Shown here: one piece after another, positions 29,482 to 36,467 of the stretch | Numbering within the stretch: position 1 is the stretch's first letter | How the letters are laid out: each line of letters begins with the position of its first letter | NCBI GenBank assembly: GCA_949295675.1 | Contig: CASFMA010000005.1 | Coordinates: 1-36,467 of the forward strand | Length of the DNA: 36,467 nt | DNA from: an uncultured Spirochaetales bacterium | GTDB taxonomy: Bacteria; Spirochaetota; Spirochaetia; Sphaerochaetales; Sphaerochaetaceae | Direction: 5' to 3' | Notes under the pieces: model-generated | Seen by the model: only the letters and a program-made list of their open reading frames with translations | What the model was told of the DNA's origin: nothing | Databases searched by the model: none | Program-made: the position numbers and the translations under genes

Positions 29482-30516
29482 TCAGATAGCAGAATAAGGA
29501 TCGAGGAAATACTCTTTCCTCTCCGCTTCATACAGCCCGAGCGGATCGGGTGGCAGCAGGATATCCTCACAGCCAAGCCCGAATGTTTCCAGGACGTTTC
29601 CGCCGAAGGCCTTCCTGAGCCTGTCTTCGCTGCATCCGGCTTTCCTGAGCCTGAAGAGCAGGAGATCCATCCCTGGGAGCCCGGGGATGCCGGAAGCTCC
29701 CTTCTCCTTATCCTCTCTCGTATGCGGCGCATGGTCTGATTCAGCCCAGTCAATCGTTCCGTCAAGGAGAGCTGAGAAGACTGCAGCCCTGTCCTCCTCG
29801 CTTCTGAGCGGCGGGTTCATCTTCAGCATCAGGCTGCTGTTCTCCGCGTCCTTCCTTGAAAGAAGCGCATGGTGCGGAGTCGCACCCATCGTAATTCGAA
29901 GATCAGAGCGTACGGATCTGACATACTCTATAGTGCTTGCTGCAGATACATGGCAGATATGCAGCGTTCCTTCAAAACCTGTCTCAACGGCAATGGAGAC
30001 AAGATCCTTCACGCTCTCCGTCTCAGCCTCTGCCGGGCGCGCATCGCTATGTGTCCCATACTGACCGGGAACATAAAGCTCAGGATGCAGAAGCTCCTCC
30101 TTCTCAGCATGGACAGCCAGGACGCCTTTATAGCCAAGACGCTTCAAGGCCTGGAACACCTTCCTCTGGTTATCAATGCCTATTATCCCCATGTTGCCTG
30201 TACTGTGGCCGGCAAACATCTTCAGCCCGACAACCAGTGGGAAAAGCTCTGAATGGAGCGATACGACCTCCTCGATCTGTCTCTCATCATTGGTGAGGCC
30301 TGCATACAGATGATACGAAACTCCCGTCCTCTCCGCCGCCTCCCCTCCAAGGGCAAGGCGTTCAAGGATCACAGAACGTGACGTGCATGCCGGGTCTGTA
30401 TTCGGCATGTCAAAAAGGTGGGTAAAGCCCAGACGTGATGCAACAGATAATCCATGCAGCACAGTCTCCTTTCCGTCCTGCTTCCAATCTCTCAGATGGA
30501 CATGAGGATCTATCAT
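29482..30516 (-). CDS. pyrC: Dihydroorotase, compact form
   Basis: PyrC closes N-carbamoyl-aspartate to dihydroorotate. The 344-residue amidohydrolase begins almost directly with the metal site DPHVHLRD (His5, His7). It continues with FDMPNTDPA, VGLKMF (the lysine position of carbamylation), AVHAEKEE, HICHVSAAST and DHAPHTREDK, the aspartate being catalytic. It lacks the about 50-residue N-terminal beta-domain of typical class I bacterial dihydroorotases and resembles the dihydroorotase domain of animal CAD in that respect. Its ATG overlaps the pyrDK stop by ATGA with no ribosome-binding site of its own, implying translational coupling. Last gene of the pyr operon. Confidence 0.94.
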   Translation of the reverse strand: MIDPHVHLRDWKQDGKETVLHGLSVASRLGFTHLFDMPNTDPACTSRSVILERLALGGEAAERTGVSYHLYAGLTNDERQIEEVVSLHSELFPLVVGLKMFAGHSTGNMGIIGIDNQRKVFQALKRLGYKGVLAVHAEKEELLHPELYVPGQYGTHSDARPAEAETESVKDLVSIAVETGFEGTLHICHVSAASTIEYVRSVRSDLRITMGATPHHALLSRKDAENSSLMLKMNPPLRSEEDRAAVFSALLDGTIDWAESDHAPHTREDKEKGASGIPGLPGMDLLLFRLRKAGCSEDRLRKAFGGNVLETFGLGCEDILLPPDPLGLYEAERKEYFLDPYSAI

Positions 30517-32183
30517 AGGGTTACGTTATTCTCCTTCAGCGTCTTCCATGTGAAGAACGTGCCTTCCTTGCAAGGCAGATGAGAGCCGCATACGCACTCC
30601 CCGCACATGCCGATACCGCACATGGTGTTCTTCTCCATCGAAAGATATATCCTGTCATCAGGCAGGCCAAGCCTCTCTGCCTTCATTGCAGCTCCTTCCA
30701 TCATCTTCCCCGGTCCGACGACATAGAGTGCTGTGTCTCCGGCAAGATCAGACTCAGAAATCGTATCAAGCACGCGTCCAGGCTTGCCGTCATCAGCTAC
30801 GGCGGTGAACTTGCCATAGGAAGAAAGAACATCCTCAAGAGGCTCCTTCCCGTCTGAAAGCTTCACGACACCGACCCTTATATCCATGGCTGTGCCATCT
30901 TTTGCCAGCCTTTCTGCAATGAGCGGAAGGACCGCGGCTCCTGTGCCGCCTCCTATGAGAAGAGCCTTCTCTGTCTTCTCATAGACCATGGGGCTGCCAT
31001 ATAGTCCGCGAGTGTATATAGTGTCGCCTTCGCAGAGCTCGAAAAGAGATGACGTGAACTGCCCTCTCTTCTTTATAAGGAATGTCAGCGGATCATTCAC
31101 AGCTACCGAGAACGGCTTCTCTCCCTTTCCCGGAACCCATAGGAACACGAACTCACCTGGCTCTGCATGGCTCTTCCCGTCGAGGGTGAACACAACCACA
31201 TCATCGCCATAAAGCTCTTTCTTCACTATCTTGTGCGGAGTGTATTCGAGAGCATTCCCCTTCGACAGATAAGCAGACGTGTCCTTCCCGTTCTTGACTG
31301 CAGAGAAGAACGCTTCCCAGTCCTTCGGGTGGACACGGGAGATTGCAGAACCGATTCCGACGCTGTCAGCACCGGCTGCGACCATACGCCTTGCATCCTC
31401 TGCAGATGAGACACCGCCCATTCCAAGGATTATGGGATTATCGCCTATCCTCTCCCTTATGGCACGGATGGCCTTGATAGCCTCTTCCTTTACCCACTCT
31501 CCAGAGGCACCGCCCTTGCCGCCAAGGTTGTTGTTCAGGATCGGGGCACCGGACTGTGGCTCGATATAAAGCTTAGGGCCGACTGTGTTTATGGCGGAGA
31601 TGCCGTCCGCACCTGCTTCTATGACAGCTTCAGCTATATCGGCTATATCAGGGACATTGGGCGTGAGCTTCACGACAAGCGGTGACTTGCGTCCTGGATA
31701 AGATGAGACAATCTTCCTCACATAGTCAGAAGCGATGGCCTTATCTGTACCGATCGAGGCGCCGAACCCAGCAGCCGCGTGCGGGCACGAGAAATTAAGC
31801 TCCAGGATATCAGCAACAGGATCGAAAGCCTTTACAAGAGTTATGAAATCATCTGGATTCGACGCGGCAAGGGAGACACAGAGAATCGCCCTCATGCCCT
31901 TCTCCCTTATCTCCCTCAGCTCCTTCAGCGCTGTATCCATGCCTGGGTTGCGCAATCCTACAGAATTGCCGAAGTCGCCAGGGGACGGAGAACAGACCAC
32001 TGGCTCCCTGTTGCCCGGAGTAGGGACAACCTGGAAGCTCTTCGTCGTTATTATATCCACGCTGGGGATGGATCGGTCGAAAAGCTCTATAAGCTCCTTC
32101 TTCGTCGACGCGACGCCCGAGACAGTCGCGAGATGTATCTCTCCCCTCTTGTGGCTTCCTTTGAGAAAAGACAGCGCATCCAT
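30513..32183 (-). CDS. pyrDK: Fused dihydroorotate dehydrogenase PyrD-PyrK
   Basis: This 556-residue protein joins both subunits of the NAD-dependent class 1B dihydroorotate dehydrogenase. Residues 1 to about 305 are the FMN-binding PyrD barrel with the class 1 catalytic cysteine C133 in LNFSCPHA, IITTKSF and LGMGGVSS. Residues about 315-556 are PyrK: FAD-binding EKPFSVAV (355-362), NAD-binding LIGGGTG (409-415), and a cysteine-rich 2Fe-2S cluster (C522, C527, C530, then C532 or C538). Electrons would pass from dihydroorotate through FMN, the cluster and FAD to NAD+. In most bacteria these are two genes, with pyrK often first. The start overlaps the pyrF stop as TGATG. Confidence 0.95.
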   Translation of the reverse strand: MDALSFLKGSHKRGEIHLATVSGVASTKKELIELFDRSIPSVDIITTKSFQVVPTPGNREPVVCSPSPGDFGNSVGLRNPGMDTALKELREIREKGMRAILCVSLAASNPDDFITLVKAFDPVADILELNFSCPHAAAGFGASIGTDKAIASDYVRKIVSSYPGRKSPLVVKLTPNVPDIADIAEAVIEAGADGISAINTVGPKLYIEPQSGAPILNNNLGGKGGASGEWVKEEAIKAIRAIRERIGDNPIILGMGGVSSAEDARRMVAAGADSVGIGSAISRVHPKDWEAFFSAVKNGKDTSAYLSKGNALEYTPHKIVKKELYGDDVVVFTLDGKSHAEPGEFVFLWVPGKGEKPFSVAVNDPLTFLIKKRGQFTSSLFELCEGDTIYTRGLYGSPMVYEKTEKALLIGGGTGAAVLPLIAERLAKDGTAMDIRVGVVKLSDGKEPLEDVLSSYGKFTAVADDGKPGRVLDTISESDLAGDTALYVVGPGKMMEGAAMKAERLGLPDDRIYLSMEKNTMCGIGMCGECVCGSHLPCKEGTFFTWKTLKENNVTL

Positions 32184-33064
32184 CAGAGGGCAGCCTCATC
32201 AAAGAGCTTGTGGATAGCTTTCATGCACTGGTCAAGCCAGTCTTCAGGAGCAGCGCCTTTCTTCCATGGGTGCGTCAGTCCTGAAGATGAGTTTATGCGG
32301 GCAAGAGCAAGCTCATAGCCTGCTTCCTTCATCATCGATATGACATCACCTGCGCTTCCTCCCTGGCTGCCTACCCCTGGAATGAGCATCGGTATATCCT
32401 TTCCGGAATATATTGATGCGATCGCGCCAAGCTCCTTAGGGCTTGTTGCTCCGACTACGGCGCCTATTCCCGGATGGTCCGTGCTCCATGCGATGATATG
32501 ATGCGCGACTGCCGCATACAGAGGATAAAGCTCCTTCTCATCGACTTTGTCCAGCACGGTCTGGTCCTGGAAATCAACAGCGCCAGGGTTCGATGTGCGG
32601 TTGAGGACATACACTCCCTTATCCTGATAAGAGAACGGGAGGACAGAATCATGGCCCATATAAGGGGAGACTGTCACAGCATCGGCTTTCCAGCAATCGA
32701 ATGCCTCACGGGCGTAGTTCTCGCTTGATTTCGCAATATCACCACGCTTGCTGTCGAGGATTACGGGAATTCCTGGGAAATATGTCTCAAGGAGCTCAAG
32801 GACATCAACAAGGGCAAGAGAGCCTGAGAAATCCTCTGCCCTAGGATCATCGAGCGACTGATAATACCCTATATTCGGCTTGAATGCGGCAGGGGCAATC
32901 CCCTCCAGCCTCATCCTCCTGAAGAGCTCCGAGAAATATGAGCCGATACGCTCGCGTACAGAAGCCTCAGACTGAGGCAGCACGGAAAGCACGGGATCGA
33001 GGCCCATACATACGATATTGCCGCTTTCTTTCGCGCTCTCCCTGAGAAGATCTATGTAGCTCAT
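32183..33064 (-). CDS. pyrF: Orotidine 5'-phosphate decarboxylase, type 2
   Basis: PyrF decarboxylates OMP to UMP, the last step of the pathway. The product from the chosen ATG has 293 residues, typical for the long type 2 enzymes. The catalytic segment LDSKRGDI (about 103-110) followed by AKSSENYA is the type 2 signature, with MGLDPVLSVLP near the N-terminus and VGATSPKEL and LIPGVGSQGG in the phosphate-binding half. GGGAGGTGAAGG precedes the ATG at 33064, which overlaps the pyrE stop by ATGA. Confidence 0.96.
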   Translation of the reverse strand: MSYIDLLRESAKESGNIVCMGLDPVLSVLPQSEASVRERIGSYFSELFRRMRLEGIAPAAFKPNIGYYQSLDDPRAEDFSGSLALVDVLELLETYFPGIPVILDSKRGDIAKSSENYAREAFDCWKADAVTVSPYMGHDSVLPFSYQDKGVYVLNRTSNPGAVDFQDQTVLDKVDEKELYPLYAAVAHHIIAWSTDHPGIGAVVGATSPKELGAIASIYSGKDIPMLIPGVGSQGGSAGDVISMMKEAGYELALARINSSSGLTHPWKKGAAPEDWLDQCMKAIHKLFDEAAL

Positions 33065-33765
33065 GCCTTCACCTCCCTTGGGAATCCTCTCTTCTCTCCC
33101 CAGCCGAACGGATCCTCCCTCCACTCGTGGAGAGCGGCAGCCGCCTCGCCGGAGATGTATCCTGTCTTCTCGGCAGTCCTGACCATCACGTCATATGAGA
33201 GGATCGTGTGGAACTCGCAGGACTGTGCGGCAAAGGCATCCTCGGCTGTCTTGAATCCATATGTGAAGATCGCAAGGCAGAGATCGCAGACGCCTCCAGC
33301 GTTCCTTATCGCCTCAACAGCCTTCAGCGATGATGAGCCTGTAGAGATAAGGTCCTCGATCAGAAGCACATGCTTGCCATCATATGAACCGCTCTGGCCA
33401 AGGCCTTCAATCTGATGGCCAAGCCCATGGTCCTTCGATGATGACCTGACATAGCTGAGAGGCTTGTAGATCATATCAGCAAGGCTTGTAGCATGAGGGA
33501 TGCCGGCAGTGGCTGTGCCAGCTATATTGTCAATCTGGACATCCATCGAATCGAGTATGTCCGCAAACGCATCGCGGATCAGGGCCCTGTATTTCGGCTT
33601 TGCCAGGAACTGCCTGTTATCATTATAGATCGGCATGCGATAGCCAGACACCCATGTGAAAGGGTTATCTGTCGAAAGCCTTATGGCCCCCAGCTCAAAT
33701 GCGCCTTTTGCAAGTATAGGCCCGTAGTATTCAGTTATTTCTTCCAGTTTCTTCATGTTGCTCAT
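33061..33765 (-). CDS. pyrE: Orotate phosphoribosyltransferase
   Basis: PyrE transfers phosphoribose from PRPP to orotate to give OMP. The 234-residue protein has the PRPP-binding loop VLLIEDLISTGSSS (133-146) with the paired acidic residues, and the flexible catalytic loop region YVRSSSKDHGLGHQIEG containing the lysine used in catalysis. The hood segment FTWVSGYRMPIYNDNR is typical. It follows pyrBI by 19 nt. The ribosome-binding site is weak (GGTAAG); an ATG three codons later is an alternative start. Confidence 0.95.
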   Translation of the reverse strand: MSNMKKLEEITEYYGPILAKGAFELGAIRLSTDNPFTWVSGYRMPIYNDNRQFLAKPKYRALIRDAFADILDSMDVQIDNIAGTATAGIPHATSLADMIYKPLSYVRSSSKDHGLGHQIEGLGQSGSYDGKHVLLIEDLISTGSSSLKAVEAIRNAGGVCDLCLAIFTYGFKTAEDAFAAQSCEFHTILSYDVMVRTAEKTGYISGEAAAALHEWREDPFGWGEKRGFPREVKA

Positions 33766-33784: not shown

Positions 33785-35371
33785 TTAATGCTTTTTCCAA
33801 ATTTCCTTGAAGCTGTGGAAACGTCCGCAGTATGCGCATGCGAAGTGTCCGTCCGGCGTACGTATGAACGATGATGGCACTCCCTCCCCGTTGACAGGGT
33901 TGGATATGCAGGCCTCGTTCTGGCAGCAGAGATCATCGAAGTTATAGATGCGAGGAGGCATGTGAGTCCTGTACTTCTCGACGACACGTCCGTCCTTGAT
34001 GATATTCAGCGTGCAGTGCGGCGCTACCGCTGCAAGCCTCTTGAGGTCCTTCCTCTCAAGCGTCCTGCAGCCGGGGCGGAAGATTATCCCCTTGTACTTG
34101 CCATCTGAACCTGTGGAGATCCACTCGCCGCCTCGTCCGTCATCCAGCCCCAGGACAGATGAGATAAGGCGCATATGCGTGCGGATATCACCAGGATCAT
34201 CGCCCTTGCAGATATGGTCGATTACTATCCCGTCTGATATCGGCCTTACGCCCTCTGAGTAGTTCTTGTCCTTCTTCTTACCTGATGGCTCGACGCGGAT
34301 TATATATTCCTCGGTCTTCAGATCTGAATCGTGCTCGCCAGGAACCGGAACGTAATCATCGCCAATCCGTCCTGCTATAAGGGAAAGAAGCACCATACGG
34401 CAGTACATACCGTTTATAGCCTGGCGTTCCCAGCCATTGAGGTCAGTCTTATCAAGCCATGTAGGGATCGTCGGATGCTCCTTATGGCGCGGAAGCGGAT
34501 GGTAGAACTTCGTACCTGGCTTGAGAAGAGGAAGGAAGTCCTTCCTGAACGTGATGGCCTCCCTCAGGACATCCTGCTTCTGCAGTATCCTCTCGCCCAT
34601 CCTTTCAAGCTGTGGGCGGGTGAAGTACCAGAGCCTTGCGACATCGCCTTTCCTAAGATACTCCTCGATTGATGGATATAGAGTAACCTCAAAACCGTTC
34701 TCGTTCATCTTCTCGATGTAGCTTTCAGGCATCATAAGCTCGCTTGGGGCAATCAGATCGACCTTGACGTGGTTGAAGATCTTCAGGCCGTCTGCCTTTG
34801 AATGCACGGTGCGTCCATGGTACAGGTCACCGACAAGCGCCACATGTATGCTGTCGAATGACATATCGAGATCCTCAAGGAAAGAGAACTCATCAAGGAG
34901 CTCCTGCGTCGGGTGCTCATGCTTGCCGTCTCCAGCGTTTATGAATGCGGGACGGTACGGAAGCCCGTTACGCTCAGCATACTCCGAGCATTCCTCCGAG
35001 AGCCACTTCGTCAGCCCTTCCACCTTGCTCCTCACTATGAAGATGCGGTTGCTGTACCCTGAAAGCATATTGAAGGTATCTGCATAGCTTTCACCCTTGT
35101 TTATTGATGATGAGGAACAGAGGAGCTCTGACACTTTCGCATGATGGAACTTCGCAGCGTTCCTGAATGACTCCTTCGTTCTTGTGCTGTCCTCAAGGAA
35201 GACCTCATAGATACCGAAGTCCGGATCATTGATCCTGAACTTATCCATAGTCTTCTCATCACCTGAAAGTATGGCCTCCTTCAGCTCATGCACCTTCTGG
35301 AAGAAGTAGCGGCGCTCATTGATTGAGAAATCCTCGATGACACACAACGACCTTGAAGCGAAAACATTCAT
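33785..35371 (-). CDS. pyrBI: Aspartate carbamoyltransferase, fused catalytic and regulatory chains
   Basis: This 528-residue protein makes carbamoyl-aspartate, the first committed step of pyrimidine synthesis. Residues 1 to about 345 are the catalytic PyrB chain with STRT (62-65), the 80s-loop lysine K92 in NKGES, HPTQE (153-157) and HPLPR. Residues about 385-528 are PyrI: the nucleotide-binding part (VRPISDGIVIDHI) and a zinc site C483, C488, C512, C515. It should therefore be feedback-controlled by CTP/UTP or ATP. Similar fusions are known from Treponema and Thermotoga. AGAGGTGAG precedes the ATG, which overlaps the stop of a leader ORF by ATGA. Confidence 0.96.
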   Translation of the reverse strand: MNVFASRSLCVIEDFSINERRYFFQKVHELKEAILSGDEKTMDKFRINDPDFGIYEVFLEDSTRTKESFRNAAKFHHAKVSELLCSSSSINKGESYADTFNMLSGYSNRIFIVRSKVEGLTKWLSEECSEYAERNGLPYRPAFINAGDGKHEHPTQELLDEFSFLEDLDMSFDSIHVALVGDLYHGRTVHSKADGLKIFNHVKVDLIAPSELMMPESYIEKMNENGFEVTLYPSIEEYLRKGDVARLWYFTRPQLERMGERILQKQDVLREAITFRKDFLPLLKPGTKFYHPLPRHKEHPTIPTWLDKTDLNGWERQAINGMYCRMVLLSLIAGRIGDDYVPVPGEHDSDLKTEEYIIRVEPSGKKKDKNYSEGVRPISDGIVIDHICKGDDPGDIRTHMRLISSVLGLDDGRGGEWISTGSDGKYKGIIFRPGCRTLERKDLKRLAAVAPHCTLNIIKDGRVVEKYRTHMPPRIYNFDDLCCQNEACISNPVNGEGVPSSFIRTPDGHFACAYCGRFHSFKEIWKKH

Positions 35372-35490
35372 CTACACTCACCTCTCGACAATAAAAAAGC
35401 CGGATAACACCCGGCACATAACAAACAAAAAAAGAAACACTCAGGCCCAAGAAACCATCTTGCTTTGTCCAAAGCCATTTCCAAGGTCAT
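35368..35490 (-). CDS. pyrL-like leader peptide of the pyr operon
   Basis: A 40-codon ORF starts at ATG 35490 behind a strong AAGGAGG (35502-35496, 5-nt spacing) and ends in a TGA that overlaps the pyrBI ATG as ATGA. Its middle is coded by a U-rich tract giving CFFFCLLC, directly followed by an intrinsic terminator hairpin that the ORF reads through. This is the plan of enterobacterial pyrBI leaders. At low UTP, RNA polymerase pauses in the U-rich tract, the translating ribosome catches up and prevents the terminator from forming. I infer the same control here. The peptide itself, rich in Cys, Phe and Leu, probably has no function after synthesis. Confidence 0.75.
   Translation of the reverse strand: MTLEMALDKARWFLGPECFFFCLLCAGCYPAFLLSRGECR
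35393..35415 (-). terminator. Attenuator terminator in the pyr leader
   Basis: Stem GCCGG/CCGGC (arms 35415-35411 and 35403-35399, extendable by one G-U pair), a 5-7 nt loop and six U residues (35398-35393). It lies inside the leader ORF and 22 nt before pyrBI. The preceding U-rich segment (35437-35421) is the likely pause region. Confidence 0.8.
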
Positions 35491-35528
35491 CTGAGCCTCC
35501 TTCGGACTAGGATATCAAAAAGTCTGCA

Positions 35529-35557
35529 GATATGTCTATACGGAAAAGAAAATGCAA
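35529..35557 (-). promoter_or_regulatory. Possible pyr operon promoter
   Basis: TTGCAT (35557-35552), a 17-nt spacer and CATATC (35534-35529); an overlapping TATAGA (35540-35535) could be the -10 instead. The region is bounded by the hsp20 terminator, so the promoter must be near here, but the exact elements are uncertain. Confidence 0.3.
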
Positions 35558-36399: not shown

Positions 36400-36467
36400 T
36401 AGCAGGGGCAGGACTCGAACCTGCGACCTCCGGGTTATGAGCCCGACGAGCTGCCAACTGCTCTACC
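36400..36467 (-). tRNA. tRNA-Met (CAT), initiator type, 5' end cut by window
   Basis: The minus strand shows the D-arm GAGC...GCTC, anticodon loop CTCATAA, T-arm GCAGG-TTCGAGT-CCTGC and acceptor strand CCCTGCT with discriminator A. CCA is not encoded. Initiator features are the three G-C pairs GGG/CCC next to the anticodon loop and A11-U24 in the D-stem. U72 would allow the unpaired 1-72 position if base 1 is C, but the first five bases lie outside the window. Confidence 0.9.

Follow-up and report, generated by a model that had tools for sequence, protein, structure and literature searches.

A candidate PyrL-type attenuator before a fused pyrBI operon in an uncultured spirochaete and its relatives

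Introduction

How do bacteria without PyrR adjust pyrimidine synthesis to supply, and does the short open reading frame (ORF) ahead of the pyr genes of an uncultured Spirochaetales bacterium take part in that control? Ribosome-coupled sensing of UTP is a textbook mechanism from enteric bacteria. A preliminary description of the DNA studied here (the window, i.e., the whole 36,467-nucleotide stretch of contig CASFMA010000005.1) proposed that the same mechanism operates before this spirochaetal pyrBI, independently of PyrR. Our comparative analysis makes it probable that a translation-coupled transcription attenuator resembling that of E. coli pyrBI governs the whole pyrBI-E-F-DK-C operon.

Results

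A fused pyrBI gene is followed by four further pyr genes

Profile matches bear out the earlier assignment of a fused pyrBI with four pyr genes downstream, all on the minus strand and, after the leader, in the order pyrBI, pyrE, pyrF, pyrDK, and pyrC. More specifically, pyrBI (33785..35371) joins the catalytic and regulatory chains of aspartate carbamoyltransferase (NF009916, E = 1e-242; Pfam OTCace_N, OTCace, PyrI, and PyrI_C); pyrE (33061..33765) and pyrF (32183..33124) score above the cut-offs of TIGR00336 and TIGR02127, respectively; pyrD (30513..32183) is fused to a pyrK-like electron-transfer domain (DHO_dh, 22-282; electron transfer subunit, 327-551); and the last gene (29482..30516) encodes a pyrC-like dihydroorotase whose TIGR00857 match (E = 7.5e-57) falls short of the curated cut-off. 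The DHODH-PyrK-like fusion is one protein of 556 amino acids. The source metagenome-assembled genome (MAG; G000) measures 1.77 Mb and is 78% complete, and the closest named relatives of its fused pyrBI protein are found in MAGs labelled uncultured Spirochaetaceae and Candidatus Ornithospirochaeta. A tRNA with anticodon CAT (read by eye) is truncated by the window end (36400-36467, minus strand).

A promoter-like site, leader ORF, U-rich tract, and terminator lie in close succession

The gene preceding the leader is hsp20; from locus to locus this upstream sequence varies, and the promoter and leader are retained. A sigma-70-like promoter site, TAGACA-N18-TATCCT, which the preliminary description had not listed, occupies 35509..35538 on the minus strand, as do all leader elements below, and the TAGACA/TGGACA-N17/18-TATYCT spacing is common to the window and its relatives. 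Judged from this site, the RNA likely starts at ~35502, immediately ahead of the Shine-Dalgarno sequence AAGGAGG (35496..35502) and ~12 nt 5' of the leader ATG. The leader ORF (35368..35490; 40 codons, MTLEMALDKARWFLGPECFFFCLLCAGCYPAFLLSRGECR) runs from the ATG at 35490 to a TGA at 35370-35368; this stop and the pyrBI ATG (35371-35369) share bases in the sequence ATGA. Within it lie an 18-nt U-rich tract (TTTCTTTTTTTGTTTGTT, 35420..35437; U at 15/18 positions), proposed here as the region of UTP-dependent RNA polymerase pausing, and an intrinsic terminator (35393..35415) made up of the hairpin GCCGGGTGTTATCCGGC (35415-35399) and T6 (35398-35393). The pyrBI ribosome-binding site, GAGAGGTGA, follows at 35378..35386. 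The Shine-Dalgarno sequence, the 40-codon ORF, the U-rich tract, and the GC hairpin with its U6 thus agree with the preliminary description down to the single base.

Just 5' of the U-rich tract, a further possible hairpin (35447..35486; -7.4 kcal/mol) might act in pausing, and hairpins resembling it are also present in two related loci (L003-L004); a specific function for it is at most weakly indicated. On average, RNA before the terminator hairpin folds somewhat better than its shuffles (z = -1.15), and such extra structure could help pausing. As the pause in E. coli pyrL is reported not to be NusA-stabilised (PMC9291695), we place little weight on a pause hairpin.

Taken together, these elements suggest the following course of events. 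Transcription would begin ~12 nt ahead of the leader ATG, and the strong Shine-Dalgarno sequence would recruit a ribosome without delay. With plentiful UTP, the polymerase would outrun the ribosome through the U-rich tract, hairpin 35415-35399 would form, and transcription would stop at about 35398-35393. With scarce UTP, the polymerase would pause in the tract, allowing the ribosome to catch up and cover the 5' arm of the hairpin, so that transcription would continue through pyrBI and the pyr genes behind it. The leader peptide itself would have no role beyond being translated.

The reading frame stays open up to the hairpin in diverged relatives

We assembled 152 distinct regions upstream of pyrB, drawn from genus members, 80 named contigs, and spirochaetes retrieved by a phylum-wide PyrI search. 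A terminator precedes pyrB in 120 of these loci (89 of the 120 being distinct), and 72 distinct leaders have a strong start. Starts were sought 30-115 nt ahead of the hairpin and ranked by Shine-Dalgarno score and start codon, blind to reading frame. When a frame was counted as open if it had no stop until within 9 nt of the hairpin, frame 0 was open in 68/72 leaders, as against 15 for frame +1 and 20 for frame +2; base shuffling predicted 21.5 open frames (z = 12). Since kinship inflates this statistic, the test was rerun with single representatives of 63, 49, and 24 clusters, of which 59/63, 45/49, and 21/24 were open (18.6, 14.2, and 6.9 expected; z = 11.5, 10.1, and 6.7, respectively). The exceptions include L096, in which the start was wrongly picked and an in-frame GTG fits, along with loci that probably carry no leader. 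Control terminators from the same contigs gave 10, 4, and 9 of 20 open by frame, i.e., little frame preference, and the same pipeline found E. coli pyrL (L120) as a positive control.

The peptide itself is not conserved: nine close pairs differ by 57.7 nonsynonymous and 17.3 synonymous changes (N/S = 0.88), and leader length ranges from 12 to 45 codons. Relatives thus retain the frame, the U-rich tract, and the terminator while the peptide drifts, the pattern that the preliminary description had named as supporting evidence. As the plan is repeated before pyrB in dozens of diverged relatives, with frame and U-rich tract beyond expectation, it is not a product of chance.

Stop codons keep to a published ribosome-terminator distance

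The ends of the ORFs bear on whether the leader ORF does no more than couple its translation to that of pyrBI through ATGA, with the hairpin incidental or a constitutive partial terminator. The overlap of leader stop and pyrBI start, part of the original description, holds for the window and is not a general feature of relatives: the ORF reaches the pyrBI start in the window and L004, in favour of such coupling, but about half of the relatives stop just before the hairpin. Among the open leaders, 35/68 ORFs end ahead of the hairpin, which indicates that something other than coupling to the pyrB start is conserved, and the terminator stems are maintained by compensating changes, 64 leaders showing 27 distinct stem starts. 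We consider this explanation very improbable and reject translational coupling as the main purpose of the ORF, as it is not conserved.

Stop codons fall at -9..0 relative to the hairpin in 34/72 leaders and at -20..-9 in 0/72, nearly all remaining stops lying within or past the hairpin. Terminators are reported to be repressed by a ribosome sitting on a stop codon only a few bases away, and 10-15 free nt let the hairpin fold (PMC4824070); a steep distance limit also applies in pyrBI (PMC4824070; see also PMC5021804). The lack of stops 9-20 nt upstream of the hairpin thus shows that the spirochaetal leaders keep to this published limit, as would be expected were a ribosome required to get as far as the hairpin. 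The distances from start to hairpin (median, 73 nt) and from hairpin to pyrB (median, 27 nt) are both conserved.

U is enriched beside the hairpin, and no antiterminator is found

The U content of leaders at -20..-10 from the hairpin is 0.51-0.56, twofold that of 52 control terminators drawn from 80 loci (0.24-0.26). Likewise, U at -25..-5 averages 0.49, whereas the opening codons of these ORFs have 0.25 and control terminators 0.23-0.26, and the richest 12-nt segment has a median start of about -18. Conservation of the tract thus holds in general, but some Sphaerochaeta-group leaders have a weak tract (L102, L104, L151, L090, L091, and L111; 4-8 U of 20), and there the pause signal must differ or be weaker.

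Such weak tracts, together with the frequency of C in the pyrimidine-rich segment at -30..-20 (0.29-0.34), would fit a translation-coupled attenuator whose specific signal is not UTP but general coupling, another nucleotide (CTP or GTP), or growth state. Nevertheless, the strongest base bias beside the hairpin is that of U, the architecture matches that of E. coli pyrBI, and UTP is the natural end product because the operon makes UMP; we therefore regard a signal other than UTP as unlikely. For E. coli pyrBI, pausing is reported as nucleotide specific in the title of a 1994 paper by Donahue and Turnbough, which PMC9291695 cites.

The presence of a leader peptide with a terminator, and of frequent Phe and Leu codons near the hairpin, is also what would be expected of amino-acid attenuation of the trp/his type, in which a ribosome stalled at specific codons favours an antiterminator. 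However, the Phe/Leu richness is a consequence of the U-rich tract and lies at no fixed codon position, and peptide and codons drift. In addition, upstream leader RNA pairs less well with the 5' arm of the terminator than shuffled sequence does (mean duplex z = +0.66), contrary to what an antiterminator would predict. With neither an antiterminator nor conserved control codons, amino-acid attenuation is disfavoured, and we give it hardly any credence.

PyrR is missing from most genus genomes

A further candidate is PyrR-type control, or another leader RNA that binds a ligand or protein. No Rfam family matched at the window leader, and the PyrR-binding RNA RF00515 was found in 0/48 genus genomes, so the fold that the preliminary description had named as counter-evidence was not found; the PyrR leader and the other Rfam families are rejected on these grounds. 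Moreover, the end of the -10 element lies 18-21 nt from the leader ATG in most genus members, so the transcript starts beside the Shine-Dalgarno sequence and has no room upstream for an RNA sensor. PyrR protein above the curated cut-off is absent from the 78% complete G000 and from 43/48 genus genomes, and it was recovered in 0/6 finished or near-finished leader-bearing relatives (G212 included).

On the other side, PyrR exceeds the cut-off in five of the 48 genus genomes (G003, G004, G005, G030, and G031), and PyrR is also present in five clostridial genomes that carry the leader. Independence from PyrR, as originally proposed, thus describes most of the genus but not these clostridial genomes, and the occurrence of leader or terminator alongside PyrR in both sets shows that one control does not preclude the other. 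The three leaders read in PyrR-bearing genus genomes (L100, L097, and L109) are shorter and have no Shine-Dalgarno sequence, which suggests a change of regulation there. As an account of the leader before pyrBI, PyrR-type or other ligand-dependent control appears most implausible.

No such leader attenuator was found before carA when the same genomes were examined (loci L200-L222, with L215 from the genome of the window). Nearly every genus member has repeated TGTTGCA motifs (TTGTTGCATTTTTGTTGCA ... GTTGCAACA) ~40-100 nt upstream of carA, and these look like putative regulator operators.

The leader extends beyond the genus

Outside the genus, the leader occurs in Bullifex porci (L073) and Sphaerochaeta halotolerans (L099), in Treponema-like genomes (L152, L153, L155, L157, L182, and L183; e.g., MIYSLITRSCKFCHPRLF, ending at the hairpin), and in Clostridia MAGs (L081-L085). 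This recurrence of ORF, U-rich tract, and terminator before pyrB agrees with the proposal that the plan is that of E. coli pyrBI. Evidence is weaker for the unfused pyrB of other spirochaete families (L141, L148, L235, L240, and L243), which show no Shine-Dalgarno sequence, and many other spirochaetal pyrB genes, of several lineages, have no such leader. The leader Shine-Dalgarno sequence, kept in relatives, is absent from L029, L030, L097, L100, and L109. In loci without it, the ATG stands very close to the -10 element (L029, L030, L086, L097, L100, L109, L141, L148, and L240), and their mRNA is probably leaderless.

In the clostridial MAGs (L081-L085), a fused pyrBI with 71-73% identity occurs together with the leader, which suggests horizontal transfer. 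A close fused pyrBI occurs in only 1/291 members of the clostridial class, so these cases look like rare transfers. One genus MAG (G013, contigs C7 and C8; L025, L053, and L052) holds two near-identical pyrBI loci, reflecting either a duplication or a mixed bin.

Discussion

A translated leader that ends at a terminator before pyr genes indicates that these bacteria probably sense pyrimidine supply by the same trick as E. coli pyrBI. Comparative support for this reading comes from selection on the frame up to the hairpin, the conserved terminator, the U-rich tract, and the lack of an antiterminator and of PyrR; from these patterns, we infer termination, pausing, and leader translation in vivo, with UTP as the signal. 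That a pyrL-type attenuator with an unrelated peptide is present in a phylum new for it is well supported by the loci compared. A literature search, which was not exhaustive and leaves room for a prior description, returned none outside enteric bacteria, and Naville and Gautheret 2010 make no mention of pyrB, UTP, or spirochaetes.

A broader history is offered tentatively, at a confidence just short of even: PyrL-type UTP attenuation may have arisen separately in spirochaetes and become a main pyrimidine control of a largely PyrR-less group, with drifting peptides, with leaderless forms in some lineages, and with transfer alongside fused pyrBI into a few Clostridia. If so, its occurrence in another phylum, with an unrelated leader peptide and conserved stop-hairpin spacing, would mark the mechanism as a general solution that was probably reached more than once. 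It would also account for pyrimidine control where PyrR is lacking and imply tight ribosome-polymerase coupling early in spirochaetal transcripts. The cultured relatives Bullifex porci and Sphaerochaeta halotolerans make attenuation directly testable, and the ~60 diverged leaders form a natural set for defining the requirements of a UTP-sensing pause tract.

Among known systems, pyrBI of E. coli and Salmonella is alike in its place before pyrBI, its strong Shine-Dalgarno sequence, its short ORF running into a terminator, its U-rich tract before the hairpin, its promoter near the leader, and the lack of an antiterminator. Pfam PF08052 (PyrBI_leader) matches E. coli PyrL (3e-34) but neither the window peptide nor two other leader peptides; the spirochaetal leader would thus work alike without belonging to the PyrL peptide family by sequence. 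Further differences are that the U-rich tract lies ~20-30 nt 5' of the hairpin in E. coli but adjoins it in spirochaetes, where the stop codon often immediately precedes the hairpin, a fused pyrBI heads the complete de novo operon, and some relatives are apparently leaderless. In E. coli rph-pyrE (orfE-pyrE), UTP-responsive coupling involves an upstream ORF whose end lies a short way ahead of the terminator, an arrangement shared by half of the spirochaetal leaders; that ORF is a real protein gene, whereas the spirochaetal one encodes a drifting peptide. PyrR-dependent attenuation (RF00515) likewise controls pyr operons by premature termination, but the genus lacks the PyrR-binding RNA and G000 lacks a PyrR protein above the cut-off. 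Finally, attenuators of the trp/his type share the leader peptide and intrinsic terminator, and they differ in the antiterminator and conserved control codons that the spirochaetal leaders do without.
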